Assembly: GCF_900113005.1 (NCBI RefSeq)
Contig: NZ_FONW01000002.1
Location: 496,001 to 560,000, forward strand
Direction of reading: 5' to 3'
Length of the DNA stretch: 64,000 nucleotides
Origin: Sunxiuqinia elliptica
Lineage (GTDB): Bacteria; Bacteroidota; Bacteroidia; Bacteroidales; Prolixibacteraceae
The first letter of the stretch is position 1. Every line of letters begins with the position of its first letter. The notes under the pieces were generated by a model. It was not told where the DNA came from. It searched no databases and was given only the letters and a program-made list of their open reading frames with translations. Positions 746 through 62,649 of this stretch are shown here, piece after piece. Made by a program: the position numbers and the translations under genes.

Positions 746-1618
746 TTATCGCTGGCGTTTATGTTTCCACCTTTTATGCGACCAAAGGTAGTATTCAGGA
801 CGTTGGCTGATCAAATGCTCAATTTTTGAAACGTAACGGTTTAGCACTTCGTCTTTGGGAAGTTCAGATGGATTATTGGCTAATTCTTCAAATGTTATTC
901 GATAGTAGCCTCGTTTAACCTTTTCTACATGTTGATAAAGTACTGGAAAGCCAGTGTGGCGTGCTAGTGCTTCTGGTCCGGGAAAAAAGCCGGCCTCTTG
1001 GTTTAAAAAAGTGGTCCAGTAGCGAGTGTTTGCTTTTGGACGCTGGTCGGCTGACAACCAGGTAAATGTTGGGATTTGACTTTTCTTGTAAGCCAGAACT
1101 TGCTTTAAAATTTTCTTTGTTGAAACCAGTTCTCCTCCAAAGCGTGCTCTCATTCGGTTAATGAAAGCATCCCAAGTAAGGTTGCGAGCCGGATTGTACA
1201 CCAGTAAGCATTTGTGTTTTAGGTAGGTCGGTAAAATGGCATTCCATTCCCAGTTGTTATAGTGCATGGTTAAGGCAAGTACACTTTCGCCTTTTTCGAA
1301 ATAAGCATTGACCAACTCGGGATTGGTAACCTGCATCCGTTTGCTTAGATGTTCCTTGGAAATGGTTTTGAGTTTGAATGATTCAAAAAGCAGGTCACAA
1401 AAGTGATGGTAAAACTTTCGGGCAATGTGATTAATTTCCCCTTCTGACTTTTGCGGAAATGATTTTATCAGGTTCTGATAAACTACTTTTTTGCGGTATT
1501 TGAATACGTGAAATACCAGAAAAAATAAGGTGTCCGATAGTAAATAGATAAACCAAAACGGAAATAGAGAGAGCATAGAGAGTAGAAGAAAACCAATATG
1601 GTTCAACAATTTTCTCAT
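746..1618 (-). CDS. LpxL/HtrB-family lysophospholipid acyltransferase (copy 1)
   Basis: A 290-residue inner-membrane acyltransferase of the lipid A late acyltransferase family, expected to move a secondary acyl chain onto Kdo-lipid A or an aminolipid on the cytoplasmic face. Residues 10-38 form the N-terminal membrane anchor. The family's HX4(D/E) catalytic motif is His119-Glu124 in 'MHYNNWEW', followed by the conserved 'YNPARN' and 'FGG' blocks, and the C-terminus has the typical 'YYLWSHKRWKHKR' block. It starts only 2 bases after the stop of a collinear paralogue, so the two are surely co-transcribed. The acyl chain and substrate cannot be told from sequence; an ornithine- or glycine-lipid acyltransferase is an alternative. 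Confidence 0.85.
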   Translation of the reverse strand: MRKLLNHIGFLLLSMLSLFPFWFIYLLSDTLFFLVFHVFKYRKKVVYQNLIKSFPQKSEGEINHIARKFYHHFCDLLFESFKLKTISKEHLSKRMQVTNPELVNAYFEKGESVLALTMHYNNWEWNAILPTYLKHKCLLVYNPARNLTWDAFINRMRARFGGELVSTKKILKQVLAYKKSQIPTFTWLSADQRPKANTRYWTTFLNQEAGFFPGPEALARHTGFPVLYQHVEKVKRGYYRITFEELANNPSELPKDEVLNRYVSKIEHLISQRPEYYLWSHKRWKHKRQR

Positions 1619-50031: not shown

Positions 50032-50634
50032 CTATTTGTGTCGCTTTTTTAATTCACGAGCGAGGTCTTCAATGCGATAGCCTTTGTGTGTCAGCAGTAC
50101 GATGAGGTGATAAAGCAAATCAGCTCCTTCGTACAAAAAGTTTTCATCGTCGTTAGCCATGGCGCCAATGATGGTTTCCACTGCTTCTTCACCCACTTTC
50201 TGCGTAATTTTACGGGTTCCGGACTGAAACAGGGAAGTTGTATATGAACCTTCGGGCATTTCTTGTTTTCGCTTATCGATGAAATCCTGCAAGTGTTTAA
50301 TAAATGCCAGATCGTCCAATTCATTATTTTCATTCCAGCAGGTATCACTTCCTGTATGGCAAACGGGGCCTACCGGATTCACTTTTATGAGCAGGCTGTC
50401 GTTATCACAATCAGTTGCTATTGAAACAACATTCAAAAAGTTCCCACTCTCTTCACCTTTGGTCCATAGCCTGTTTTTTGTACGGCTAAAAAAGGTAACT
50501 TGTCCTGTGGCTTCGGTTTTTGCCAAAGCTTCTTCGTTCATAAATCCCAACATCAATACTTTGTTGGTGTCGTTATCTTGAATAATTGCCGGAACGAGTC
50601 CGTTTCCTAATTTCGAAAAATCTGTTTTTATCAT
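50032..50634 (-). CDS. hisIE: Bifunctional phosphoribosyl-AMP cyclohydrolase/phosphoribosyl-ATP pyrophosphohydrolase
   Basis: 200 residues. The N-terminal HisI part (1-110) has 'MLGFMNEEALAKTEATGQVTFFSRTKNRLWTKGEESGNFL' and the Zn/Mg Cys/Asp residues in 'DCDNDSLLIKVNPVGPVCHTGSDTCW'; the C-terminal HisE part (115-200) has 'KVGEEAVETIIGAMANDDENFLYEGADLLYHLIVLL'. Steps 2 and 3 of histidine synthesis. It is the last gene of the his operon, 6 bases after the guest outer-membrane gene. Confidence 0.97.
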   Translation of the reverse strand: MIKTDFSKLGNGLVPAIIQDNDTNKVLMLGFMNEEALAKTEATGQVTFFSRTKNRLWTKGEESGNFLNVVSIATDCDNDSLLIKVNPVGPVCHTGSDTCWNENNELDDLAFIKHLQDFIDKRKQEMPEGSYTTSLFQSGTRKITQKVGEEAVETIIGAMANDDENFLYEGADLLYHLIVLLTHKGYRIEDLARELKKRHK

Positions 50635-50640
50635 TTTGTT

Positions 50641-51807
50641 TTATTTCAAGTTCATTCTATCTAATGCGCGATGTTTTCTAATGTTGCCAAACAAATTGTA
50701 GGTGACCATTACCGAGAAATAGTTACCTGCCAGATTGGTGCCTCCCGTATTTTTGTAGTTGACGATGTTGTATTTTGCCTGAACACCGAGGTAATTCATA
50801 CTTTTTGAGTAGAATCGGTAGCCAAGGCCAATGTTGAGGTTCAGAGCATTGATGGACTTTCCTTTGATGTCGTTGTCCACATCGCCTTCAATGGCATCAA
50901 AACCATCAAATGCAATTCCTCCAACCAAGTCAAGCTCCCTTTTTAGGTTGTTATGAAGTTCGTAAGACAAGTCGAGCCCAACGAGACCTCCAAGGTAGTG
51001 GTCGGTTGATTTGAGCTGGTCATCATGAATAACCTCATACATTTCCTTTGCTTTTCCGGGACGAATGGCGATTGTCAGGTCGTACTGCATTTTCTTCATT
51101 TTAAAGCCGAACTGCATTCCGATAAGTGCTTTGGGGCCAATAACCGATGCAAGGTCTCCGGTTGGCAGATAAATTCCAGAAAGTACGCCAAAGTTTCCGT
51201 CAATCATGTTTTTGATTTTGGCTGTCTCCTCTGAGTAAACTTGCTCCAGCGGAGTTGTTGCTTCTTGTTTTTGCTGAAGGTGTTGCCAGAATCCTTCAGT
51301 ATTGTTGGCATACAGCAAGCAAAAGGCGCGTGCATCGCCGGTCACCTCCTTGTTTTGAAGCAGACTTTCAGCCCATGCAGTTGTTAGCAGGTCAAAGTCT
51401 GACTTTAGCGGAATAAATCCGAGGGCAACTTTATAATATTCGTAGTATTGGTGATAGTTTTTAGCTTTTGCAAACTCTTGCCGATCAATGTAAGTGAAAA
51501 CATGGCTCATGAGTTCTTCTTGGTCAAGTTCCTGGCTTGAAAATATGCCGAGCTGGATTTGACTGAGCACCTTAATACGAAAGATGGGCTCGGACTCACC
51601 ACAGAATTCTTCCCAGCGATTGACCACATGGCTGATTGAATCGTAGGCCTGTTTGGTGTAGAGGTCATTGATAATTTGGGCCGAATTGTAGGCCACATTT
51701 TCGCAGTTGGGAATATCCTGAAGCAACTTGTGATCAATGTCGGTTTGTGCATTGGCTTGTCCCAATAAGGCTAGCGAGATAAGAAGTGTCAGAAGGTATT
51801 TTCTCAT
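50641..51807 (-). CDS. Exported beta-barrel-like protein inside the his operon
   Basis: 388 residues from the ATG at 51807, where the signal peptide starts ('MRKYLLTLLISLALLGQANA'). The first half is helical, possibly repeat-like ('AKNYHQYYEYYKVALGFIPLKSDFDLLTTAWAESLLQ'), the second half (about 190-388) is beta-rich with a barrel-like end ('LGYRFYSKSMNYLGVQAKYNIVN', 'YFSVMVTYNLFGNIR'). I recognise no family. It lies between hisF and hisIE with no own terminator, so it is transcribed with histidine genes without an evident metabolic link. It may sense or transport something during amino-acid stress, or just have been inserted. Confidence 0.65.
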   Translation of the reverse strand: MRKYLLTLLISLALLGQANAQTDIDHKLLQDIPNCENVAYNSAQIINDLYTKQAYDSISHVVNRWEEFCGESEPIFRIKVLSQIQLGIFSSQELDQEELMSHVFTYIDRQEFAKAKNYHQYYEYYKVALGFIPLKSDFDLLTTAWAESLLQNKEVTGDARAFCLLYANNTEGFWQHLQQKQEATTPLEQVYSEETAKIKNMIDGNFGVLSGIYLPTGDLASVIGPKALIGMQFGFKMKKMQYDLTIAIRPGKAKEMYEVIHDDQLKSTDHYLGGLVGLDLSYELHNNLKRELDLVGGIAFDGFDAIEGDVDNDIKGKSINALNLNIGLGYRFYSKSMNYLGVQAKYNIVNYKNTGGTNLAGNYFSVMVTYNLFGNIRKHRALDRMNLK

Positions 51808-51861
51808 CGGTTTTTTAGTTAGTGATTTTTCAAACTGAAAATACAACAATCCTTTTATTTT

Positions 51862-52614
51862 TTATCGCACTGTAATGCCTTTTTGTTTGAGGTATGCTTT
51901 TAAGTCGGGAATCGCAATTTCTTTGTAGTGAAAGATACTGGCAGCTAGCCCGGCATCAGCTTTCCCTTTGGTAAAAACATCGACAAAATGATCCATGTTG
52001 CCAGCGCCACCTGAAGCAATGATGGGGATTTTTAATGAGTCGGCCATTCTGGCCAGTTCATCATTGGCAAATCCAGCTTTGGTGCCATCATGATCCATAG
52101 AGGTGAACAAAATTTCTCCGGCACCGCGATCTTCAGCTTCCTTGGCCCACGAAAATAATTCTTTGTCTGTCGGAATTCGTCCTCCATTAACGGTGACCGT
52201 CCAGTGCCCATCGTAGTTTTTGGCATCGATGGCCACGACAACAAATTGGGTTCCGAAGTTTTTGGCCAGGTCATCAATCAATTGAGGGTTGCGCACTGCT
52301 GAAGAATTGATGCTGACTTTGTCGGCTCCGGCGCTCAGCAAAGCTTCGGCATCTTTGATTTCGCTGATGCCACCGCCCACAGTAAATGGAATATTGATTT
52401 CGCGAGCGATACGCTTTACCAACTGAACAAAGGTTTTTCGTCCTTCATGTGTTGCTGTAATATCGAGAAAGACCAATTCATCAGCTCCCTGTTCGGCGTA
52501 TAAAGCACCCAATTCAACAGGATCGCCTACGGATTGTATATTGACAAAGTTCACGCCTTTTACGGTCTGACCGTCTTTAATATCCAGGCATGGTATGATT
52601 CGTTTTGCTAACAT
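51862..52614 (-). CDS. hisF: Imidazole glycerol phosphate synthase, cyclase subunit
   Basis: 250 residues, (beta/alpha)8 barrel. Catalytic Asp11 in '[18 protein letters not shown]' and Asp130 in '[13 protein letters not shown]'; phosphate-binding 'GGIS' and '[11 protein letters not shown]'. Together with HisH it makes IGP and AICAR from PRFAR and ammonia. It follows the four-helix-bundle gene in the operon. Confidence 0.98.
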
Positions 52615-52637
52615 TTTTTTTAGTTTGTAAGTAGACT

Positions 52638-52660
52638 AGGCAGAAGCTAGAAGGCAGAAG
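52638..52660 (+). repeat. Inverted-repeat arm A around the four-helix-bundle gene 1
   Basis: AGGCAGAAG, then a short gap, then GAAGGCAGAAG. The reverse complement of this pattern lies at 53127-53157, on the other side of the gene. Confidence 0.6.
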
Positions 52661-52706
52661 ATGGTTTTCTCTTTCCTCTCTTTTTTCATTATTCCTGAGT
52701 CTATTT

Positions 52707-53069
52707 TTAGTTTTTTTTAAGCTTGAGCTTAGAAATTAAGCTAGATAGCATCTTTTCAATTTCGATACTTAATGAGTTTATCTCTGTGTATTTTTCTTCA
52801 TCAATATAATTTAGTTTGTATGAGAGTTCTAATTGAGTTTGGAATTCATACAGCGAGCCAGATGCAATCTGAAGGAAGCGAATATAATCCCCTAAATGAT
52901 TTCTTCCATATCCTTCTGCAATATTGCTGGGAATTGAAACTGCACTTCTTTGTATTTGGGAAATAATTCCGAATACTTCTTCTTTGGGAAATGTTTTGGT
53001 CTCTCTATAAATACTTAAAACGAGGGACATCGATTTTTGCCAAACAATTAGATCTCTGTAGGTTTTCAT
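52707..53069 (-). CDS. Four-helix-bundle protein (23S rRNA-IVP family), copy 1
   Basis: 120 residues, helical. The signature 'SQIQRSAVSIPSNIAEGYGR' and start 'MKTYRDLIVWQKSMSLVLSIYRETKTFPKEE' match the family first seen inside 23S rRNA intervening sequences and related to the Avd protein of diversity-generating retroelements. Its function is unknown. It interrupts the his operon between hisA and hisF, with an inverted repeat of different arms on both flanks. A second copy about 45% identical by eye lies 1.5 kb away. Confidence 0.85.
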   Translation of the reverse strand: MKTYRDLIVWQKSMSLVLSIYRETKTFPKEEVFGIISQIQRSAVSIPSNIAEGYGRNHLGDYIRFLQIASGSLYEFQTQLELSYKLNYIDEEKYTEINSLSIEIEKMLSSLISKLKLKKN

Positions 53070-53126
53070 ATTTTTGTTTTTAGATCCTTTAGGAGTTTCC
53101 TTTTTGATGTCAGCAACTTATTTAGA

Positions 53127-53157
53127 CTTCTGCCTTCTCCCTTCAACCTTCTGCCTT
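53127..53157 (+). repeat. Inverted-repeat arm B around the four-helix-bundle gene 1
   Basis: CTTCTGCCTTC ... CCTTCTGCCTT, the reverse complement pattern of 52638-52660. It runs into the stop codon of hisA. Confidence 0.6.
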
Positions 53158-53920
53158 AAATATAAAACTGTTCAATCTGAGCTAAAGTAATTTTACCTTC
53201 ATAAATGGCTTTGCCCGTGATTACACCGGGAACACCCATCTCGTTCAGTTCGTGGATATCTTTCATGCTGGCAATTCCGCCACTGGCAATGAGCTCAAGT
53301 CCTTCGAACTTTTGCATGATTTCCTGGTAAAGCTCAATACTGGGGCCGGTGAGCATGCCATCCCGGGCAATATCTGTGGAAATAACTTTCTGAATGCCTT
53401 TACTTGTATAGCTCTCAATGAAATCAAGAATCGATAATTCGGAAACCTCCTGCCAGCCGCTTACCGCAATTTTTTTGTCTTTGGCATCGGCTCCCAAAAT
53501 AATTTTCTCGGGGCCATAGGTTTCAATCCAGCTTAAAAACGTTTCCCGGTCTTTTACCGCAATGCTGCCTCCCGTGACCATTTGTGCTCCACTCTCAAAG
53601 GCTATGCGTAAATCGTCATTTGTTTTTAAACCACCTCCAAAATCAATAACCAGGTCGGTTTTTCCGGCAAGCTGCTCAAGCACTTTGTAGTTCACAATGT
53701 GTTGAGCTTTTGCTCCATCCAAATCAACCAAATGTAAGCGGGTGATTCCGGCATCTTCAAACATTTTTGCTACTTCCAGCGGATTTTCATTATAAACCGT
53801 TTTTTGGTTATAGTCGCCTTGAGAAAGCCTGACGCATTTTGCATCAATTAAATCAATGGCGGGGATGATGGTTATTTGGGAGGTTCTTGAGTCTTTGAGT
53901 TCCTGATTCTTTGAGTTCAT
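53156..53920 (-). CDS. hisA: ProFAR isomerase with unusual N-terminal extension
   Basis: 254 residues from the ATG at 53920 (a TTG at 53953 is also in frame). '[28 protein letters not shown]' is the usual start of HisA, but no start codon lies directly before it: the residues ahead ([14 protein letters not shown]) come from a spacer repeat. Catalytic Asp in 'PAIDLID', the second Asp in '[13 protein letters not shown]', phosphate loop '[14 protein letters not shown]'. It converts ProFAR to PRFAR for HisH-HisF. Confidence 0.95.
53883..53917 (+). repeat. Direct repeat in the hisH-hisA spacer, part of hisA N-terminus
   Basis: Two copies of a TCTTTGAGTTC-type unit (TTGAGTCTTTGAGTTC, then GATTCTTTGAGTTC). 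The minus strand encodes the first residues of HisA. Confidence 0.65.
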
Positions 53921-53985
53921 AGTTTGTTTTCTTCGTGGGTTCTTTGGGTACAAAAATATTGATGGACTTATGCAATCTTATCAAT

Positions 53986-54585
53986 TTAAATTTTCAAAAA
54001 ATTCTCTAACAGTTTCGAGCCTACTGAGCCACTTTTCTCGGGGTGAAACTGCGTGGCGTAAAAATTGTCCTTTTGCAAGGCCGCGCTGAACGAATTGATG
54101 TAATCACAAACAGCTGCAGTATGTTCACCCACCGTAGCATAATAAGAATGCACAAAATAGAAGTATTGATTGTCAAGTGACGGATCAAATAGCTTGCTTT
54201 TCAGGTTGGAGATGGTGTTCCAACCCATGTGCGGAACTTTGGTTGAAAATTCCATGCCAGGTTGTGGAACAAACCGTTTTACCTGTTCTTCAAAAATTCC
54301 CAGGCATTGGGTATTTCCTTCTTCTGAATGGCTGCACATGAGTTGTAAGCCAAGGCAGATGCCAAGTACCGGTTGTGTTAAAGAGGGAATGAGTTGATCC
54401 AAGCCTTCTTTCTTTAGGTAAGCCATGGTGGTGCTGGCTTCACCTACTCCTGGGAAAATAACTTTATTGGCAGCTTTGATCTTTTCGTGATCTCCGGTGA
54501 TTTCAGCTTGAATTCCTAACCGCAACAAGGCGTTGCTTAGTGATTCGATGTTCCCTGCGTTGTATTTGATAATGACGATGTTCAT
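53986..54585 (-). CDS. hisH: Imidazole glycerol phosphate synthase, glutaminase subunit
   Basis: 199 residues from the ATG at 54585; an ATG five codons upstream exists, but family members begin 'MNIVIIKYNAGN' as here. Class I glutamine amidotransferase: nucleophile Cys in 'PVLGICLGLQLM', His and Glu in 'ATQFHPEKSG'. It gives ammonia to HisF. Confidence 0.97.
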   Translation of the reverse strand: MNIVIIKYNAGNIESLSNALLRLGIQAEITGDHEKIKAANKVIFPGVGEASTTMAYLKKEGLDQLIPSLTQPVLGICLGLQLMCSHSEEGNTQCLGIFEEQVKRFVPQPGMEFSTKVPHMGWNTISNLKSKLFDPSLDNQYFYFVHSYYATVGEHTAAVCDYINSFSAALQKDNFYATQFHPEKSGSVGSKLLENFLKI

Positions 54586-54589
54586 GCTT

Positions 54590-54606
54590 TTTGTGTGCAT
54601 GAGTAC
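54590..54606 (+). repeat. Flank of the four-helix-bundle gene 2 with hairpin
   Basis: GAGTAC-CTAA-GTACTC (the plus strand around 54601-54616) is a 6-bp hairpin; the other side of the gene (about 55005-55020) carries GGTAC-TTTT-GTACT. As inverted copies they share AGTAC-NN-AAGTAC. Confidence 0.5.
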
Positions 54607-54972
54607 CTAAGTACTCAATTTATTTAATAAGTTTTTTTCTAATCCTCGAAGTAGTGCTTCAATCTCTTTTGTTTGCTCGTACAAGAGTTTAAAATCAGAA
54701 GAGTTTAAATAGCCTATGTTATTGGAAATTTCAAGCTGTGTTTGGCACTCATAAAGTGAGCTGATTGAAATCCGAATATAACGGATAAACTCATTATTAC
54801 CTTTTCTTCCAAAACCTTCAGCAAAGTTACTAGGAATAGACACTGCTGCTCTTCGGATTTGCGATGTCAAACCAAATAACTCTTCTTTAGGAAAGTTAAG
54901 TGTTGTTTTGTATACATCAGTAACAAAGGCCATTGCCTTTTGCCAGGCAATAAATTCTTTATAAGTCTTCAT
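54607..54972 (-). CDS. Four-helix-bundle protein (23S rRNA-IVP family), copy 2
   Basis: 121 residues. 'SQIRRAAVSIPSNFAEGFGR' and 'MKTYKEFIAWQKAMAFVTDVYKTTLNFPKEELFGL' place it in the same family as copy 1. It stands between tlpA and hisH in the his operon and is bordered by GTAC-type hairpins. Both copies read the same way as the operon and sit in gene spacers, never inside a gene, which suggests insertion by a mechanism that prefers spacers, or gene duplication with later rearrangement. Confidence 0.85.
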   Translation of the reverse strand: MKTYKEFIAWQKAMAFVTDVYKTTLNFPKEELFGLTSQIRRAAVSIPSNFAEGFGRKGNNEFIRYIRISISSLYECQTQLEISNNIGYLNSSDFKLLYEQTKEIEALLRGLEKNLLNKLST

Positions 54973-55018
54973 GTTTGGTAATTAAAATGGTTGAACTGAT
55001 GCACTTGGTACTTTTGTA

Positions 55019-55549
55019 CTACTTTAAGAGTTTTTCAATGACACTTTTCATTTCGTCAAACTCTTCTTGCTTGAACAGACGGGTCATGTAGACAATTTTC
55101 CCTGTTTTGTCGATAATGACATTGCGGGTTACTCCAGCTCCTTTCTGCGCATAGCTGTAAAAAATTCCTCCTTTAGGATCAAGTAAAAGCGGATAGGAGA
55201 CTGGAATTTGCTTGCCAAATTTTTCTACTTTCTCGCGTGGTTCATCCAAATCGATGCCAAACAAGGCAAAATCACTGTTGTCTTTGTGTTTTTGCCAAAT
55301 GTCTTTTTCGATATGGGGCATCTCTTTGCGGCATACGCCACACCAGCTGGCTGTAAACTGTAGCATCACAACTTTTCCTTTGTAATCAGAAAGCTTTACG
55401 GTTTTTCCATCGGTTGTTTCAGTGGTAAAATCGGGAGCCTGCTGTCCAACTTTGACTAGGTAGCCATAATCGTCGGGTACTTGCTGGATAGTGGTTTGTG
55501 CGTTAGCAAATGTAAATGCGAAAATGAAAATAAACGTTAGAAATTTCAT
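55019..55549 (-). CDS. TlpA-type thioredoxin-fold exported reductase
   Basis: 176 residues with a signal peptide (1-17, 'IFAFTFANAQ'). Thioredoxin/AhpC-TSA fold with the redox Cys70-x2-Cys73 in 'FTASWCGVCRKEMPHIEKD'; 'KLSDYKGKVVMLQF' and 'VSYPLLLDPKGGIFYSYAQKGAGVTRNVIIDKTGKIVY' are typical. It acts in the periplasm in disulfide reduction, e.g. for cytochrome c maturation or a protein repair path. It has no metabolic link to histidine, but lies in the operon. Confidence 0.88.
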   Translation of the reverse strand: MKFLTFIFIFAFTFANAQTTIQQVPDDYGYLVKVGQQAPDFTTETTDGKTVKLSDYKGKVVMLQFTASWCGVCRKEMPHIEKDIWQKHKDNSDFALFGIDLDEPREKVEKFGKQIPVSYPLLLDPKGGIFYSYAQKGAGVTRNVIIDKTGKIVYMTRLFKQEEFDEMKSVIEKLLK

Positions 55550-55598
55550 GGGATCTATTGTCTGTTAATTTGTTAAATCTCAATAATGACTTGACTGA

Positions 55599-56483
55599 TT
55601 AATGAAAAACAACGGTTCGGTTATTGTATACGAGAACTTTCCGTTGCAGGTGCTTGAAAACGGCATTGGAAAGAACAATTTTTTCCAAATCGCGCCCTTT
55701 TCGTATCAGGCTTTTTACGGTATCAACATGGCTACAACGGGTAACGCCTTGGTCAATAATTGGGCCGGCATCCAAATCACTGGTTACATAGTGACTTGTG
55801 GCTCCAATAATTTTCACGCCGCGTGCATGCGCTGCATGATATGGTTTGGCTCCGGCAAAAGCAGGAAGGAAAGAGTGATGGATGTTGATGATTCGATTGG
55901 GATAATGGTCAACAAAATCTGCAGAAAGAATTTGCATGTACCGGGCTAAAACGATAAAATCAATTTGATGTTCTTTTAGCAATTCCAGTTCAGCAGCTTC
56001 CTGCTCCTCTTTGTTGGCATTGTTGACTGGAAAGTAATGGAAGTCGATTCCAAAACGTTCTGCCACCGGACGCATCGTTTCATGGTTGCTGATGATTAGT
56101 GGAATTTCAACATCCCATTCTCCTGCCGTGTAGCGAGCAAGAATATCGAACAGGCAGTGCGACATTTTCGAGACAAAAATTGCCATCCGGGGAACGTCTT
56201 CGGAAAAATAAATTTTCCAGTTCATGTTTAATTTGGATGCGATGAGGGTGTCAAAATATTCACCAATTTTATCGGCAGGAATTGAGAAATCTTTCAGTTC
56301 CCATTCTACACGCATGTAAAATATTTTTTCAACCCGGTCAACATGCTGATCCAGGTTCATGATGTTCCCATTGTTTTTATTCAAAAATTCCGTTACTGTT
56401 GCCAGTATTCCTTGCTGGTCGGGACAATGAATTAGCAGGATCGCTGTATCTTTCTTTTCGCGGAGTGGTTTTATGCTTTTCAT
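55599..56483 (-). CDS. purU: Formyltetrahydrofolate deformylase
   Basis: 294 residues from the ATG at 56483; upstream in-frame TTG codons give a non-family extension. N-terminal ACT domain about 10-85 ('DTAILLIHCPDQQGILATVTEFLNKNNGNIMNLDQHVD'), C-terminal formyl transferase domain about 90-294 with 'NIHHSFLPAFAGAKPYHAAHARGVKIIGATSHYVTSDLDAGPIIDQG', which holds the Asn, His and Asp catalytic set. It releases formate from 10-formyl-THF, balancing one-carbon units for purine synthesis. Histidine synthesis makes AICAR, which then needs formyl-THF for purine synthesis, so co-expression is reasonable. Confidence 0.93.
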   Translation of the reverse strand: MKSIKPLREKKDTAILLIHCPDQQGILATVTEFLNKNNGNIMNLDQHVDRVEKIFYMRVEWELKDFSIPADKIGEYFDTLIASKLNMNWKIYFSEDVPRMAIFVSKMSHCLFDILARYTAGEWDVEIPLIISNHETMRPVAERFGIDFHYFPVNNANKEEQEAAELELLKEHQIDFIVLARYMQILSADFVDHYPNRIINIHHSFLPAFAGAKPYHAAHARGVKIIGATSHYVTSDLDAGPIIDQGVTRCSHVDTVKSLIRKGRDLEKIVLSNAVFKHLQRKVLVYNNRTVVFH

Positions 56484-56578
56484 AGTTTTTTCATTTTTTA
56501 TCTTTCTCACCACAGAGTTTGCAGAGGTTTCTATTTCTGCATTGATTCTCCTTTCAGGGGTCTGCGGCAAAATTTAAT

Positions 56579-57703
56579 TTAGAGTGTTCCCTTGGTCGAT
56601 GGGAGCTCAAAGTTAAAAACATCTTTCCGGATTGCCATTTTGATAGCCCGGGCAAGTGCTTTGAAAATACCTTCAATTTTATGGTGTTCGTTTTCGCCTT
56701 CTGCTTTTATGTTGAGGTTGGCAAGCGCGGTGTCAGAGAATGATTTGAAAAAATGAAAGAACATTTCGGTTGGCATATCTCCAACTTTTTCGCGCTTGAA
56801 ATCGGCTTGCCAGATCAGCCAGGGTCTTCCACCAAAGTCAAGAGCAACCTGGGCCAAACAGTCGTCCATGGGTAGGCAATAGCCGTAACGTTCAACGCCT
56901 CGTTTATCTCCCAAGGCAAGTTTAAAAGCTTCGCCTAAAGCCAAGCCAGTATCTTCAATGGTATGATGCTCGTCAACCTGTAAATCGCCGTCCACCAGAA
57001 TATTCAGGTCAATCCCTGAGTGACGCGCTATTTGATCGAGCATGTGGTCGAAGAACCCCAGTCCAGTGCTAATGTTGGCTTTGCCGCTTCCATCCAGGTT
57101 CAGCTCAATTTTAATCTTGGTTTCTTTGGTATTTCGCTCCACTTGTGCTGTGCGTTCAGGAGCGGCAACTTGAGCATAAACTTCATCCCAGCTTGAGCTT
57201 GTTAACACGCAGGTTTGCTCCAGCCCTTGTTTTTTTAGTTCTTCGGTAAGTGAGCCGTCATTTAGCAAAATGCCCTTGGCTCCAAGATTTTTAGCCAGTT
57301 CAATATCTGTTAACCGGTCGCCAATGACAAAGCTGTTGGCTAAATCGTAGCTTCCGTCCATATAATTGCCCATCAATCCGGTGCGAGGTTTGCGTGTCGG
57401 AGCATTATCTTCGGGGAAGCTGCGGTCAATTAGAATGTCATTGAACGTGATTCCTTCGTTTTCAAAAGCCTTTAGCATCTTATTGTGAGCAGGCCAAAAA
57501 GTATCTTCCGGAAACGAGTCTGTCCCCAGTCCATCTTGGTTGGTCACCATCACCAACTCGTAGTCAAGGTTCTTCGCAATGAAATAAAGGTTGCGAAATA
57601 CGCCAGGAATAAATTCCAGTTTTTCCAATGAGTCTAACTGAAAATCGATTGGTGGTTCAACAACCAGTGTCCCGTCACGATCAATGAATAAGGCCTTTTT
57701 CAT
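56579..57703 (-). CDS. hisB: Bifunctional histidinol-phosphatase/IGP dehydratase
   Basis: 374 residues. HAD phosphatase at 1-165 (nucleophile Asp8 and Asp10 in '[14 protein letters not shown]') and IGP dehydratase at about 185-374 ('[19 protein letters not shown]' type block '[26 protein letters not shown]', with Mn ligands His and Glu). Steps 6 and 8 of the pathway. This fused form is found in enterobacteria and Bacteroidota. Confidence 0.97.
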
Positions 57704-57723
57704 CTGTTTAAAATTTTTAATAT

Positions 57724-57741
57724 CGAATAATCAATTATTCG
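57724..57741. repeat. 18-bp palindrome in the hisC-hisB spacer
   Basis: CGAATAAT-CA-ATTATTCG, a perfect 8-bp dyad with a 2-base centre, with no T-run after it. One of the odd elements in this operon's spacers. Confidence 0.6.
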
Positions 57742-57744
57742 GAT

Positions 57745-58776
57745 TTATAGCAATTCGTTTAATTTATCCAGCAAGATTTGGTTTTCTTCGGGCGAACCAA
57801 CAGTGATTCGCAGGCTATCATCACACAAAACAACTTTTGAGCGATCTCGCACAATAATTCCATTCTCCACCAGGAAGTCGTAAATTCCTCTGGCATCGTA
57901 CATTTTAACTAATAAAAAGTTGGCGTCCGAAGGGAATACTTTTACAACAAACGGGAGTTTGGAGAGTTTTTCTTCGAGCGCTTTTCGCTCCTGAATTAGC
58001 AGCTCCACCCATTGGTTTTTATCGGCTTCCTGCTCGATGAGCTCCAACGCTTTTTGCTGAGTCAGCATGTTGATGTTGTATGGATACTTGATTTTGTTGA
58101 AAACGCGAATGATTTCGGGATTGGCAAAGGCCATTCCCAACCGGATACCTGCCATGCCCCAAGCCTTGGAGAAGGTTTGCAAAATAACGAGGTTTTCGTA
58201 GTGACTCAACTTTGGAAGGAGACTGGCTCCCGGAGCAAAATCGATGTATGCTTCATCCAAAATAACCAAGCCCTCAAATGTTTGGATGAGCTTGATTAGT
58301 TCCTTGTTGTCGAGCAAATTGCCCGTTGGATTGTTGGGGGAGCATACAAAAATCAGCTTGGTGTGTTTATCTGTTTTTTCCAGAAGGGCTTCTGCTGAAA
58401 AGCCATAGTTGTCATTCAGTTTCACCTTGCGAACTTCAATATTGTTGATATCTGCCGCAACTTGGTACATGCCGTAAGTTGGATCAATCGTAACAATATT
58501 ATCTTTCCCAGGTTCGCAAAAAGCACGAAAAAGCAGATCGATTGGTTCATCACTTCCATTGCCCAGAAAGATTTGGTCAGCCTCACAGCTTTTTTGTTTT
58601 GAAATGGCCACTTTTAATTCCCGTTGAAGGGGATCTGGGTAGCGGTTGTAGGGAGCGTTGAATGGGTTTTCATTGGCATCGAGAAAAACCATTGCCTCCC
58701 CGGTGTACTCGTCACGTGCTGATGAGTAGGGCTTTAGTGCCTGAATGTTTTTACGTATCAGTTGTTGAAGGTCCAT
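57745..58776 (-). CDS. hisC: Histidinol-phosphate aminotransferase
   Basis: 343 residues, class I/II PLP aminotransferase. '[23 protein letters not shown]' and '[17 protein letters not shown]' at the N-terminus, '[11 protein letters not shown]', '[13 protein letters not shown]' and PLP Lys in '[14 protein letters not shown]', Arg in '[14 protein letters not shown]'. Step 7. It lies between hisD and hisB. Confidence 0.97.
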
Positions 58777-58790
58777 TTTTTTATGTTTTT

Positions 58791-58850
58791 GAAGGCGGTT
58801 GAAAATGATTGAAAACAGTTGAAAACGATGGAAGAAGTGGAAGGCAATTG
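58791..58850 (+). repeat. 10-bp tandem repeat in the hisD-hisC spacer
   Basis: Six adjacent decamers vary on GAAAACRRTT: GAAGGCGGTT, GAAAATGATT, GAAAACAGTT, GAAAACGATG, GAAGAAGTGG, AAGGCAATTG. It begins right after the hisC start. Confidence 0.75.
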
Positions 58851-58857
58851 TCTCCTA

Positions 58858-60150
58858 TTACTTTTCTTTTCCTAATGCTTTCAGTCTTAATGTTACCGCA
58901 TTTTTGTGTGCATCCAATTGCTCAGCTTCAGCCATTTTTTCAATTACGGGGCCTAAATTTTTAATCCCGGATTCAGATATTTCCTGAAATGTAATCTTAC
59001 GAATGAAACTATCCAGGTTGACACCGCTGAATGAGCGGGCCCAGCCGTTAGTCGGCAGAGTGTGATTGGTCCCTGATGCATAATCACCAGCGCTTTCAGG
59101 GGTGTAGTTCCCGAGGAAAACAGAACCAGCATTCGTAATTTTATCTGCGGTTTGCAGGTAGTTTTCCATGGAGATGATTAAATGTTCCGGTGCATATTCG
59201 TTAATAAGCTCGATCATCTCAAACTCATCATTCAAAACAATGGCGACACTGTTTTTTAATGCTTTTTGGGCAATTTCTTTTCGGCTGAGTTGCTTGAGTT
59301 GTTTTTCAAGTTCAAGTTCAACCTGATCCACTAATTCTGTCGAGTTGGCCACTAAAACAACTTGAGAGTCTGGTCCGTGTTCGGCCTGCGAAAGTAAATC
59401 GGATGCGATGAAGGCTGGATTGGCTGATGAGTCAGCCATGATAGCTACTTCAGAAGGTCCGGCAGGCATGTCAATAGCCACATCGCTGATGCTGACCAGT
59501 TGTTTTGCTGCCATAACGTATTGGTTTCCCGGACCAAATATTTTGGCAATCTTTGGGACTGGACCGGCTCCATAGGCCATGGCTCCAATGGCTTGTACGC
59601 CTCCCAGCTTGAAAACTTTGGTAACGCCCACCAGCTGAGCCGCAAATAGAATGGCAGGGTTGATTTGTCCTTTTTTGTTTGGTGGGGTGCAGAGCACAAT
59701 TTCTTTACAACCGGCAATCTGGGCAGGTATGGCTAACATTAAAACACTTGAGAACAAAGGAGCTGAACCTCCCGGAATGTACAAGCCAACTTTCTCAATG
59801 GCTACAGCTTTTTGCCAGCAAACAACGCCCTTGGTTGTTTCCACTTTGTTTATTTCCGTCTGTTGGCTGGCGTGGAATTGCTTAATGTTTTCAGCAGCAA
59901 TGGTAATGGCTTCTTTTAATTTCGGATCAAGTTGATTGGTCGCTTCGCTTAATTCTTGAGCTGAAATGGCAAAATCATCGATCTCGGCACCATCAAATTG
60001 TTGGGTGAATTTTTTTATAGCAGAAAGGCCATCTGTTTTGATTTCGGTGAGAATTGCTTTAACGTTTGCAGTCAACTCACTGGCGTCAAAAAGTGGGCGT
60101 TCCAGGATTTGAGGCCATTCAGATTTTTTGGGATTCAGGTAACTTTTCAT
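58858..60150 (-). CDS. hisD: Histidinol dehydrogenase
   Basis: 430 residues. It oxidises histidinol twice to histidine with NAD+ and Zn. 'YIPGGSAPLFSSVLMLAIPAQIAGCKEIVLCTPP', 'VQAIGAMAYGAGPVPKIAKIFGPGNQYVMAAKQ' and 'DMPAGPSEVAIMAD' are family blocks; the catalytic Glu-His stretch 'NEYAPEHLIISME' and 'YTPESAGDYASGTNHTLPTNGWAR' follow. Second gene of the operon. Confidence 0.98.
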   Translation of the reverse strand: MKSYLNPKKSEWPQILERPLFDASELTANVKAILTEIKTDGLSAIKKFTQQFDGAEIDDFAISAQELSEATNQLDPKLKEAITIAAENIKQFHASQQTEINKVETTKGVVCWQKAVAIEKVGLYIPGGSAPLFSSVLMLAIPAQIAGCKEIVLCTPPNKKGQINPAILFAAQLVGVTKVFKLGGVQAIGAMAYGAGPVPKIAKIFGPGNQYVMAAKQLVSISDVAIDMPAGPSEVAIMADSSANPAFIASDLLSQAEHGPDSQVVLVANSTELVDQVELELEKQLKQLSRKEIAQKALKNSVAIVLNDEFEMIELINEYAPEHLIISMENYLQTADKITNAGSVFLGNYTPESAGDYASGTNHTLPTNGWARSFSGVNLDSFIRKITFQEISESGIKNLGPVIEKMAEAEQLDAHKNAVTLRLKALGKEK

Positions 60151-60274: not shown

Positions 60275-61132
60275 TTAGAAAATCATCTTTTCGATTGGCA
60301 TGACTAAAATACCTTGCGCACCCGCTTCTTTTAATTTCCCAATGATTTCCCAGAACTCTTTTTCGGCAATTACCGACGACATAGATACCCATCCTTCTTC
60401 AGCCAGTGTGGTAACCGTTGGGCTTTTCATTCCGGGAAGGATTGCCTTTATTTCCTCAATTTTTTCTTTAGGAGCATTGAGGACAATGTATTTTTTGTCT
60501 TTTGCACGTTCCACTGATTCCATGCGGAAAATCATTTCGTCCATAATGGCTCGTTTGTCCGCTGAAAGTTCTTTGGGAGCGACAAGTACAGCTTCTGAGT
60601 ACAGAGCAACTTCTACTTCTTTAAGACGATTGGAGACCAGTGTTGATCCGGAGCTGACGATGTCAAAAATTGCATCAGCCAAGCCAATCCCTGGGGCAAT
60701 TTCAACTGATCCGGAAATCACGTGGATATCCGCTTTAACGTTGTTTTTGTCTAGGAAGTCTTTTAAAATAACCGGATAGGAGGTGGCAATTTTTTTGCCA
60801 TTGAACCACTCAATGCCGGGGTAATCTTCCGATTTTGGAATGGCCAGACTTAAACGGCATTTGCTGAAACCCAGTCGTTTGATGATTTGTACTTGCTCTT
60901 TCTTTTCCAGCATTTCGTTTTCACCAACGATGCCGATATCAGCTACTTGGTCGGCTACGGCTTGGGGAATATCGTCATCCCTAAGAAATAGCACTTCGAG
61001 TGGAAAATTCTTGGCTGCAGCCAGCAGTTTCCGTTTTCCTAAACTAATGCTAATGCCAGCTTCTGCAAGTAATTGCATGGAGTCTTCGTTGAGTCTTCCT
61101 TTCGTTTGAATCGCGATTCTCAGTTGTGTCAT
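60275..61132 (-). CDS. hisG: ATP phosphoribosyltransferase, long form
   Basis: 285 residues, the long HisG with the C-terminal regulatory ACT-like domain (about 210-285, 'LPGMKSPTVTTLAEEGWVSMSSVIAE'). 'RIAIQTKGRLNEDSMQLLAEAGI' and 'DIGIVGENEMLEKKE' start the catalytic domain, 'GLADAIFDIVSSGSTLVSNRL' is the PRPP loop. It makes the first committed step and is feedback-inhibited by histidine in this form, which works with the transcription attenuator just upstream. Confidence 0.97.
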   Translation of the reverse strand: MTQLRIAIQTKGRLNEDSMQLLAEAGISISLGKRKLLAAAKNFPLEVLFLRDDDIPQAVADQVADIGIVGENEMLEKKEQVQIIKRLGFSKCRLSLAIPKSEDYPGIEWFNGKKIATSYPVILKDFLDKNNVKADIHVISGSVEIAPGIGLADAIFDIVSSGSTLVSNRLKEVEVALYSEAVLVAPKELSADKRAIMDEMIFRMESVERAKDKKYIVLNAPKEKIEEIKAILPGMKSPTVTTLAEEGWVSMSSVIAEKEFWEIIGKLKEAGAQGILVMPIEKMIF

Positions 61133-61147
61133 GATAATTCAGATCAA

Positions 61148-61177
61148 ATAAAAAAGGCTTACCGTATGGTAAGCCTT
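61148..61177 (-). terminator. Attenuator terminator ahead of hisG
   Basis: On the minus strand AAGGCTTACC (61177-61168), loop ATAC, GGTAAGCCTT (61163-61154), then a run of six T. A perfect 10-bp Rho-independent terminator placed between the leader ORF and hisG; it makes no sense as the end of an operon. Confidence 0.92.
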
Positions 61178-61211
61178 CTTTGGATTAATATTTTGGAACA
61201 AAACAAAAGAA

Positions 61212-61274
61212 TTACAGCCTACCAATTAATAGGGTATCATGATGATGGCCGTAATGTCCTTGAATGTTGTTCAT
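61212..61274 (-). CDS. hisL: Histidine operon leader peptide
   Basis: 20-codon ORF from the ATG at 61274 to TAA at 61214-61212: MNNIQGHYGHHHDTLLIGRL. His at 7, 10, 11, and 12, three of them adjacent (CAT CAT CAT, 61247-61239). A ribosome stalled there leaves 61223-61216 (GGTAGGCT) free, which pairs with the first terminator arm; a ribosome at the stop codon covers it. It is too short for ORF calling and would be dismissed as intergenic. Confidence 0.88.
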   Translation of the reverse strand: MNNIQGHYGHHHDTLLIGRL

Positions 61275-61297
61275 GTCTTAATTTTCTCTTTGAGCTG

Positions 61298-61329
61298 CAA
61301 GTATAGTGATAAAATAAAAGTACTGCAAG
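61298..61329 (-). promoter_or_regulatory. Probable promoter of the his operon
   Basis: On the minus strand CTTG at 61329-61326, then 20 bases, then TATACTTG at 61305-61298, one mismatch from TAnnTTTG. RNA would start near 61290, 16 bases before the leader ATG. Confidence 0.6.
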
Positions 61330-61557: not shown

Positions 61558-62649
61558 ATGAAGAAATTATTAGCAGTTAGCTTAATTCTGTTGTTGGTAT
61601 GTCAACTATATGCGTCGGACAATGCTGATTTATTCAAGCCTAAGAAGATTGAGAAAGCCATGAAAAAGGCGACCTTCTGGCAGTTAAAACATCCTAAGCA
61701 TAAACTCTATGACTGGACCAATGGAGCTTTTTACGCCGGTGTTTTTGCAGCCTATGAAACAACCGGTTCAAAAAAAATATGGAAAGCTTTAATGGAGATG
61801 GGAGAGACCAATGAGTGGAAGCCCGGTCCTCGTTTACATCATGCTGATGATCACGCAATCTGTCAAACTTACCTGGATGTATATAGGGTTGAAAAGCAGG
61901 AGCAAATGCTGATTCCTTTTCGCGATACCATTGATAAGATGATGGCAACACCATATTCTACTGGAAAGATTCGGCCGATTACCTGGTGGTGGTGCGATGC
62001 CTTGTTTATGGCACCTCCGGCTTTGGTTAAGCTTGGAGAGATTTTGGATGAACCCAAGTATTTAAAGCTTAATGATAAGCTCTTCAAGGAAACCTATGAT
62101 TTGCTTTTTGATGAAGAGGAAAACTTGTTTGCGCGAGATATGAAATATAAAACCGACTGGGAAGAACCTCGTTATGAAGCTAACGGGAAAAAGATTTTCT
62201 GGTCGCGAGGAAATGGTTGGGTAATGGGCGGTATTGTTCGCGTGTTGGAGGAGCTTCCTGCTGACTACCCGAATCGCTCTTTTTATGAGAAACTTTTTGT
62301 ACGGATGGCGCAACGCATAGCTGAAATTCAGCAGGAGGATGGACTTTGGCGGGCTAGCTTGCTTGATCCTGCTTCTTACCCAGGAGGAGAGGCCAGTGGT
62401 TCTGGTTTCTTCACCTATGCTTTGGCTTGGGGAATCAATAATGGCTTGTTGGATGAGGCTACTTATAAACCGGTTGTTCAGAAAGCTTGGGTGGGCTTAA
62501 ATAGCCTGATTCAAGCTGATGGACGCGTGGGCTGGACTCAACCGATTGGCGCTGATCCGAGAGCCAATTTTTCAAATGCAAGTTGGGAGGTTTATGGCAC
62601 TGGTGCTTTTCTTTTGGCCGGTAGCGAAGTGATTAAAATGAACTGGTAG
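61558..62649 (+). CDS. GH88/GH105 unsaturated glycuronyl/rhamnogalacturonyl hydrolase
   Basis: 363 residues with a Sec signal (1-19, 'LAVSLILLLVCQLYAS'). An (alpha/alpha)6 barrel: 'MKKATFWQLKHP..LYDWTNGAFYAGVFAAYE' at the start, 'RLHHADDHAICQTYLDVY' with the first catalytic Asp, 'TWWWCDALFMAPPALVKLGEI' with the second, then 'FWSRGNGWVMGGIVRVLEELP' and 'GLWRASLLDPASYPGGEASGSGFFTYALAWGIN'. It removes unsaturated uronate from oligosaccharides made by polysaccharide lyases. No lyase or SusCD pair is next to it, so it may serve a distant polysaccharide locus. Confidence 0.92.
   Translation: MKKLLAVSLILLLVCQLYASDNADLFKPKKIEKAMKKATFWQLKHPKHKLYDWTNGAFYAGVFAAYETTGSKKIWKALMEMGETNEWKPGPRLHHADDHAICQTYLDVYRVEKQEQMLIPFRDTIDKMMATPYSTGKIRPITWWWCDALFMAPPALVKLGEILDEPKYLKLNDKLFKETYDLLFDEEENLFARDMKYKTDWEEPRYEANGKKIFWSRGNGWVMGGIVRVLEELPADYPNRSFYEKLFVRMAQRIAEIQQEDGLWRASLLDPASYPGGEASGSGFFTYALAWGINNGLLDEATYKPVVQKAWVGLNSLIQADGRVGWTQPIGADPRANFSNASWEVYGTGAFLLAGSEVIKMNW

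Follow-up and report, generated by a model that had tools for sequence, protein, structure and literature searches.

Does the DNA in front of hisG in Sunxiuqinia elliptica hold a complete histidine attenuator, and is such an element peculiar to this genome? The question arises in a window of 64,000 nucleotides, the whole stretch of DNA that was analysed, in which a presumed 11-kb his operon runs from 61132 (hisG) to 50032 (hisIE). The original prediction placed upstream of it a promoter-like motif, a 20-codon leader with histidine codons at positions 7, 10, 11 and 12, a perfect 10-bp terminator with a run of Ts, and a segment able to compete for the first terminator arm. Each of these parts is found on the minus strand where it had been placed (Table 1). 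The element is probably a transcription attenuator of the classical, ribosome-mediated type that controls the his operon, a reading to which we give a probability of about 0.9. It rests on the parts themselves, on their conservation, on leader tails and terminators that change jointly from family to family, and on the switching seen when the nascent RNA is folded under a ribosome mask. From these we infer promoter use, translation of the leader, ribosome stalling, termination and a response to histidine.

Table 1. Features of the hisG leader, the presumed operon and related leaders of the same genome; positions are those of the window unless a contig is named.
Feature	Position	Strand	Remarks
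Promoter-like TTG-N20-TATACTTG	61298..61328	-	TTG 61328-61326, 20 bases, TATACTTG 61305-61298
Leader ORF, 20 codons	61212..61274	-	MNNIQGHYGHHHDTLLIGRL, then stop; His at 7, 10, 11, 12
Segment 1, protector arm	61247..61254	-	UUACGGCC; within the His region
Segment 2	61212..61223	-	GGUAGGCUGUAA; last leader codons and stop
Antiterminator arm of segment 2	61223-61216	-	GGTAGGCT
Protector arm of segment 2	61219-61212	-	GGCUGUAA
Spacer between segments 2 and 3	61178..61211	-	TGT and AATATT conserved
Segment 3, terminator 5' arm	61168..61177	-	AAGGCUUACC; also used by the antiterminator
Segment 4, terminator 3' arm and subsequent Ts	61150..61163	-	GGUAAGCCUU
Terminator hairpin	61177-61154	-	AAGGCTTACC-ATAC-GGTAAGCCTT, then Ts to 61150; arms 61177-61168 / 61163-61154
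hisG, first gene of presumed operon	60275..61132	-	Pfam HisG and HisG_C
Remainder of presumed operon, hisD to hisIE	50032..60150	-	
First four-helix-bundle gene	54607-54972		
Second four-helix-bundle gene	52707-53069		
402-codon ORF	50641-51849		Between hisF and hisIE
Nearest upstream gene	61558-62649		Other strand, divergent
Phe/Tyr/Trp-rich leader (L083)	G000 C10:365955-366101		MTTIFSNTFYYWFYYFGSQNGVER, then stop
Serial ilv leaders, Ile/Leu/Val-rich (L270)	G000 C15 near 617000, positions ~1100-1370		MKIQAIILNVIILLVVISQAK and MERFSSIHLVILVVILRFH, each then stop

The leader is predicted to encode histidine at four of its 20 codons. The motif TATACTTG upstream of it is what we take to be the Bacteroidota -7 type, TAnnTTTG, with one mismatch. 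Of 76 leaders, 37 have a TAnn[TC]TTG motif no more than 60 nt before their ATG, compared with 5.8% of base-shuffled controls.

Four segments of the leader RNA can pair in alternative ways. Segment 1 is made of the last base of His7, the codons Tyr8 and Gly9, and the first base of His10. It pairs as UUACGGCC with GGCUGUAA to form a protector helix (1:2), which was absent from the original prediction. Segment 2 can also pair through GGTAGGCT with GGCTTACC (61175-61168) in segment 3, over eight positions of which two are G-U, exactly as had been proposed. This is the antiterminator (2:3). Segments 3 and 4 form the terminator (3:4), with 10 perfect pairs between its arms and 14 pairs in folds. The fold of 61132-61290 as a whole has a z score of -5.58 relative to 200 dinucleotide shuffles.

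In the proposed mechanism, transcription would start approximately 15-20 nt upstream of the leader ATG, and a ribosome would follow the RNA polymerase, translating the histidine-rich leader. When charged tRNA-His is ample, the ribosome would either cover segment 2 while at the stop codon, or depart and let 1:2 form. Segment 3 would then be free, the 3:4 terminator would form, and transcription would end short of hisG. With little charged tRNA-His available, the ribosome would stall at His 7, 10, 11 or 12, covering segment 1 and leaving segment 2 free. The 2:3 pairing would then form before segment 4 exists, perhaps as the base of a longer antiterminator hairpin, and the polymerase would continue into hisG and the 11-kb operon.

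Such a switch can be modelled by folding the leader from approximately its presumed start, keeping the ribosome footprint unpaired. Without a ribosome, 1:2 and 3:4 form, and 1:2 has a probability of 1.0. If the A site is placed on His 7, 10, 11 or 12 and the RNA reaches to just past arm 3, the mean probability of 2:3 is 1.0. The pairing then runs on through the spacer, and the whole RNA has an energy between -16.4 and -17.8 kcal/mol. The same result is obtained when codon 14 is masked. A ribosome whose A site is on the stop codon, or no ribosome at all, gives 2:3 a probability of 0.0. In these nascent folds the antiterminator segment is hidden at the stop codon and free at a histidine stall, which agrees with the behaviour first suggested for it. 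As soon as arm 4 has been made, the full-length RNA folds best into the terminator under all masks, so the choice must fall during transcription, as it does in the classical scheme. In these models, attenuation hinges on kinetics. A conserved T-G at 61205-61204 (T in 46 and G in 49 of 52 sequences) could be a pause that couples the polymerase to the leader ribosome. It follows the 1:2 stem at a distance of 7-10 nt, according to which base is counted as the last of the stem; the spacer also folds into the antiterminator.

An intrinsic terminator would work with or without a regulating ribosome, and its dominance in the full-length folds under every mask is also what would be seen if the His-rich ORF were incidental to a hairpin that acts as an ordinary terminator or as a constitutive attenuator. 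Conservation upstream of hisG bears on this alternative. In the near set, HisG was detected in 81 of 100 genomes, the own genome among them, and in the phylum in 252 of 296. Upstream DNA was examined at all 81 near-set loci, in 96 other genomes of the phylum, hand-picked for family spread among the listed places (60 belonging to the same order or class and 36 to other classes), and at 80 named Bacteroidales loci, the best 80 of 567 found. These sets overlap, at least six named loci matching numbered genomes (L186/G004, L188/G010, L191/G052, L192/G055, L212/G059, L262/G053). The same test was used throughout: an ATG ORF of 8-40 codons no more than 350 nt from hisG, with at least three His in eight codons; a terminator, counted in addition, had to lie within 150 nt.

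The original prediction had been staked on the fate of the leader in relatives, and the outcome favours it. In the near set, own genome included, 76 of 81 loci have the His-rich ORF, and 74 have a terminator as well. The corresponding counts are 58 and 50 of 60 in the same order or class, 18 and 13 of 36 in other classes, and 47 and 45 of the 80 named loci. When at least four His in eight codons are demanded, 66 of 81, 49 of 60, 17 of 36 and 38 of 80 loci remain, compared with 5, 3, 3 and 6 for the best amino acid other than His; in the near set this is Ile (5 of 81). On the reverse strand of the 81 regions, His is not among the seven commonest amino acids listed, and it can therefore occur in at most two of the 81 there. 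The leader criterion is failed by 33 of the 80 named Bacteroidales loci (L186-L265) and by 18 of the 36 other-class loci. Fourteen of the 33 failing named loci are titled Prevotella or Prevotellaceae. Within the own genome, a search with the leader model R1 finds hisG at E 1.2e-20, as expected because the hisG leader is a training sequence, and no second strong copy of the his leader; the next match has an E value of 0.011. Judged by these comparisons, the putative his attenuator is not peculiar to the Sunxiuqinia elliptica genome.

An incidental ORF does not sit well with a histidine run and terminator that recur together in 74 of 81 loci, when no other amino acid exceeds 5 of 81 at the stricter count. 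Nor does the hairpin terminate a neighbouring gene, since the nearest one upstream is divergent.

Selection at the level of the RNA can be followed in an alignment (A1) of 52 family leaders, that is, the 53 family regions minus L017, with L060 trimmed by hand. The 2:3 pairing is intact in 98.1% of the cells of A1, and in at most 52.2% when it is slid. Its covariation in A1 is not above that of shuffles (2 vs 1.7 cells), because the pairing hardly varies within the family. For 1:2 and 3:4 together, 91.1% of cells are paired and 37 cells carry a double change, compared with 10.8 ± 2.6 in shuffles. The protector, as expected for an attenuator of this class, keeps its inner five pairs in 90.0% of family cells and its outer three in 69.2%. 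The position of the stop codon relative to GGTAGG varies: it may be within the motif (GG-TAG), downstream (GGT AGG CCn TAA) or upstream. Both stop codon and frame shift relative to GGTAGGCC while the RNA element persists, which argues that the RNA is kept rather than the end of the peptide.

Of 177 regions, 140 could be parsed into leader and terminator, and in these the pairing between leader tail and terminator arm was compared across families, using 100 shuffles for each. The mean duplex energy is -11.2 kcal/mol, vs -6.7 with shuffled bases and -7.7 with tails swapped between families. At 93 of the 140 loci, no more than five of 100 shuffles pair as well. Family f1 passes this test at 45 of 53 loci and f44 at 7 of 8, whereas other families of the same order pass at only 7 of 21. 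The sequences of f46, which is probably Flavobacteriaceae, differ (arm CCCGTTTGAG and tail CTCAAGCG), yet they pair at 16 of 24 loci. Terminator arm and leader tail change together between families. Complementarity that survives in families of differing sequence is not what an ordinary terminator calls for, and we consider that explanation very unlikely.

The leader might instead act on hisG translation, or by way of Rho, and not through an intrinsic terminator. Families f43 (L144-L149) and f64 (L164, L168, L172-L176) have His-rich hisG leaders for which the scan found no clear terminator, one doubtful hairpin in f43 aside. Folding of these terminator-less leaders gave no convincing alternative structure. 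Another read-out may therefore exist in some Bacteroidota. For the Sunxiuqinia leader it is just as improbable as an ordinary terminator, since the perfect 10-bp hairpin with its Ts ends 17 nt before the start of hisG, and the terminator pairs, taken alone, are kept in 98.3% of family cells.

The spacer between segments 2 and 3 is a further part of the leader. Columns 85-87 and 103-110 of A1 (window approximately 61178-61211) are almost as conserved as the helices: T85, G86 and T87 are found in 46, 49 and 45 of the 52 sequences, and A106, A108 and T109 in 50, 52 and 49. In many single-sequence folds, the spacer builds an upper antiterminator hairpin. The stability gained in this way is modest (mean z -1.07, with 20 of 52 sequences within the best 10% of shuffles). 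Covariation in the upper helix equals that of shuffles, 137 of 500 of which reach it, and RNAalifold, applied to A1 from segment 2 to arm 3, returns the eight 2:3 pairs only. The idea that the spacer is an unpaired polymerase pause signal was set aside as unproven, given that single-sequence folds put it in the upper antiterminator. By eye, similar TGT ... GATAT pairs can be seen elsewhere in the own genome, in some of its leaders for ilv, trp and prephenate dehydrogenase.

A ligand-binding riboswitch or a protein-binding leader, with a short ORF there by chance, could account for conservation of the spacer (TGT ... AATATT) beyond proven pairing, but this is the least probable explanation of all. 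Neither the window nor any of 11 related loci has an Rfam match at gathering score, and the codons track the pathway: His codons precede hisG, Trp codons trpE, Ile/Leu/Val codons ilvD, and Phe/Tyr/Trp codons prephenate dehydrogenase (the amino-acid control being for hisG only).

Leaders for other amino acids are found in the same genome. The second match of R1 is a leader, MTTIFSNTFYYWFYYFGSQNGVER, with a terminator before the prephenate dehydrogenase gene. A trpE-like gene, whose best NCBIfam match (TIGR00564) is below the curated cut-off, is preceded by the leader MKQIMFNFWWWRNNFSQYRGER; this is the one Trp leader found in the own genome (L304, L266). In front of ilvD there are two leader-terminator units in series.

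Loci for ilvD and for trpE were each drawn from 41 genomes, the own genome among them. Of 30 ilvD loci, 29 are preceded by an Ile/Leu/Val-rich leader with a terminator, and 10 by two such units; of 30 trpE loci, 26 are preceded by a Trp leader with a terminator, and 9 by two units. A few ilv and trp hits (L296, L330) look spurious, and the amino-acid control covers the his criterion only. By the same shuffle test, the tail pairs with the terminator at P <= 0.05 in 29 of 39 cases for ilv and 3 of 34 for trp. Of the ten ilv series, all pass in their second unit and three in their first. The own genome fits this pattern, with P = 0.24 for the first ilv unit and a second unit that passes. Serial Trp leaders with terminators stand before trpE in relatives (L310-L314, L316, L318, L320, L323); the first leader is often NTIWLPWWGLL and the second WWWR.NFSQ.

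Serial his units, each with its own terminator, occur at five loci (L065, L066, L072, L261 and L265), with the second ATG 15-88 nt past the first T-run. At L261 and L265, which are named Carboxylicivirga, both units pass the pairing test (P 0.05 and 0.00; 0.007 and 0.00), and both his units are predicted to be complete. At L065, L066 and L072, neither unit passes the test for antiterminator pairing (P 0.15-0.86). Two other candidates were not counted as his series: L060 has a 172-nt gap with a promoter-like motif, and the first ORF of L078 is likely spurious.

Over 24 series, the gap from the first T-run to the second ATG is 15-60 nt in 20, and 88 and 91 nt in two; for two further series, where a longer ORF was taken, the gap was printed as 0. 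The TAnnYTTG motif lies within the gap in one of the 24 (L320). With gaps that are mostly short and only one holding this motif, most units are probably serial on one transcript.

A broader proposal follows the same lines. Ribosome-mediated attenuation would be the ancestral and standard control of Bacteroidota his, trp, ilv and aromatic operons, absent from Rfam, and in Bacteroidales such operons would in repeated cases place two attenuators that respond to one amino acid one after the other on a single transcript. We put this at even odds. Weighing on it is the failure of the pairing test for seven of ten first ilv units, 31 of 34 trp cases and three of five his series.

The operon that the attenuator would control also holds genes of other kinds. 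After hisG come hisD, hisC, hisB, purU, a redoxin gene, a four-helix-bundle gene, hisH and hisA, followed by another four-helix-bundle gene, hisF, a 402-codon ORF and hisIE; hisH, hisA and hisF are named from their Pfam family and order. The view that five of these genes are foreign passengers fails for purU and the redoxin gene, both of which lie inside the his operon of all four relatives compared (L271-L274). The first four-helix-bundle gene is in the operon of two of the four. The second one and the 402-codon ORF are in none of them; matches to the second bundle gene in L271 and L273 coincide with the position of the first. The two four-helix-bundle genes are different and are of the 23S rRNA intervening-sequence type. 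The 402-codon ORF has no Pfam or NCBIfam match at E <= 0.001.

Among the closest known systems is the enterobacterial his attenuator hisL (Rfam His_leader, RF00514). It likewise has a short ORF with His codons, a 1:2 protector, a 2:3 antiterminator and a 3:4 terminator before hisG. Unlike hisL, the Sunxiuqinia leader has fewer His codons, in an interrupted run (H..HHH), its segment 2 overlaps the leader end and stop codon, and its putative promoter is of the Bacteroidota type. It also lacks a sequence-level match to His_leader, which does not appear among the 13 Rfam matches listed at E values of 10 or less. Of the amino-acid leader families, Phe_leader alone is in that list, with 28.1 bits vs 55 required. 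A comparative study of attenuation in bacteria, reportedly by Lopatovskaya in 2010, may already cover the Bacteroidetes.

Within the phylum, the text of the 2021 Flavobacterium psychrophilum transcriptome describes strong clues that leader peptides attenuate transcription in front of amino-acid operons, and places hisG and pheA among structured 5' elements common to Flavobacteriaceae (PMC9723704). Phylum, gene, transcribed 5' regions, leader-peptide clues and the lack of an Rfam hit are shared with the present case; the other genera discussed there are Flavobacteriaceae, and the word “histidine” is absent from the main text (PMC9723704). The Flavobacteriaceae hisG element is probably the same ancestral element as that of Sunxiuqinia. 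A map of Bacteroides thetaiotaomicron reports sORFs reminiscent of leader peptides, with neither “histidine” nor “hisG” in its main text (PMC7366714).

The his attenuators described for Firmicutes (hisS/hisZ, PMC2965389; his genes, PMC9413887) share a leader with His codons, a terminator and an antiterminator. They belong to another phylum, and the main texts contain no mention of Bacteroidetes or Bacteroides (PMC2965389) or of “bacteroid” (PMC9413887). Naville and Gautheret wrote in 2010 that, to their knowledge, leader-peptide systems had previously been shown in Proteobacteria and Actinobacteria only, ermC aside (PMC2965389). An example for attenuators in tandem is the Salmonella mgtCBR leader, where two leader ORFs with attenuators are serial on one leader RNA (PMC3641672). 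Those units sense different signals (ATP and proline), whereas the Bacteroidota series repeat one amino-acid signal, and the mgtCBR authors call their arrangement a singular example (PMC3641672).

As far as these texts go, the kind of attenuator is already known and hisG itself has been hinted at within the phylum. Our literature search did not find the breadth in Bacteroidota or the serial same-signal arrangement in print.

The element would be a conserved regulator of histidine synthesis in a phylum whose scanned sequences have no Rfam match for it. Bacteroidota make little use of Shine-Dalgarno sequences, and the element can therefore serve to probe transcription-translation coupling there. 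Serial units for the same signal pose a quantitative question, namely what a second like gate adds to the first. If the serial arrangement is real, a double gate would multiply two read-through fractions, and could in this way sharpen or widen the response.
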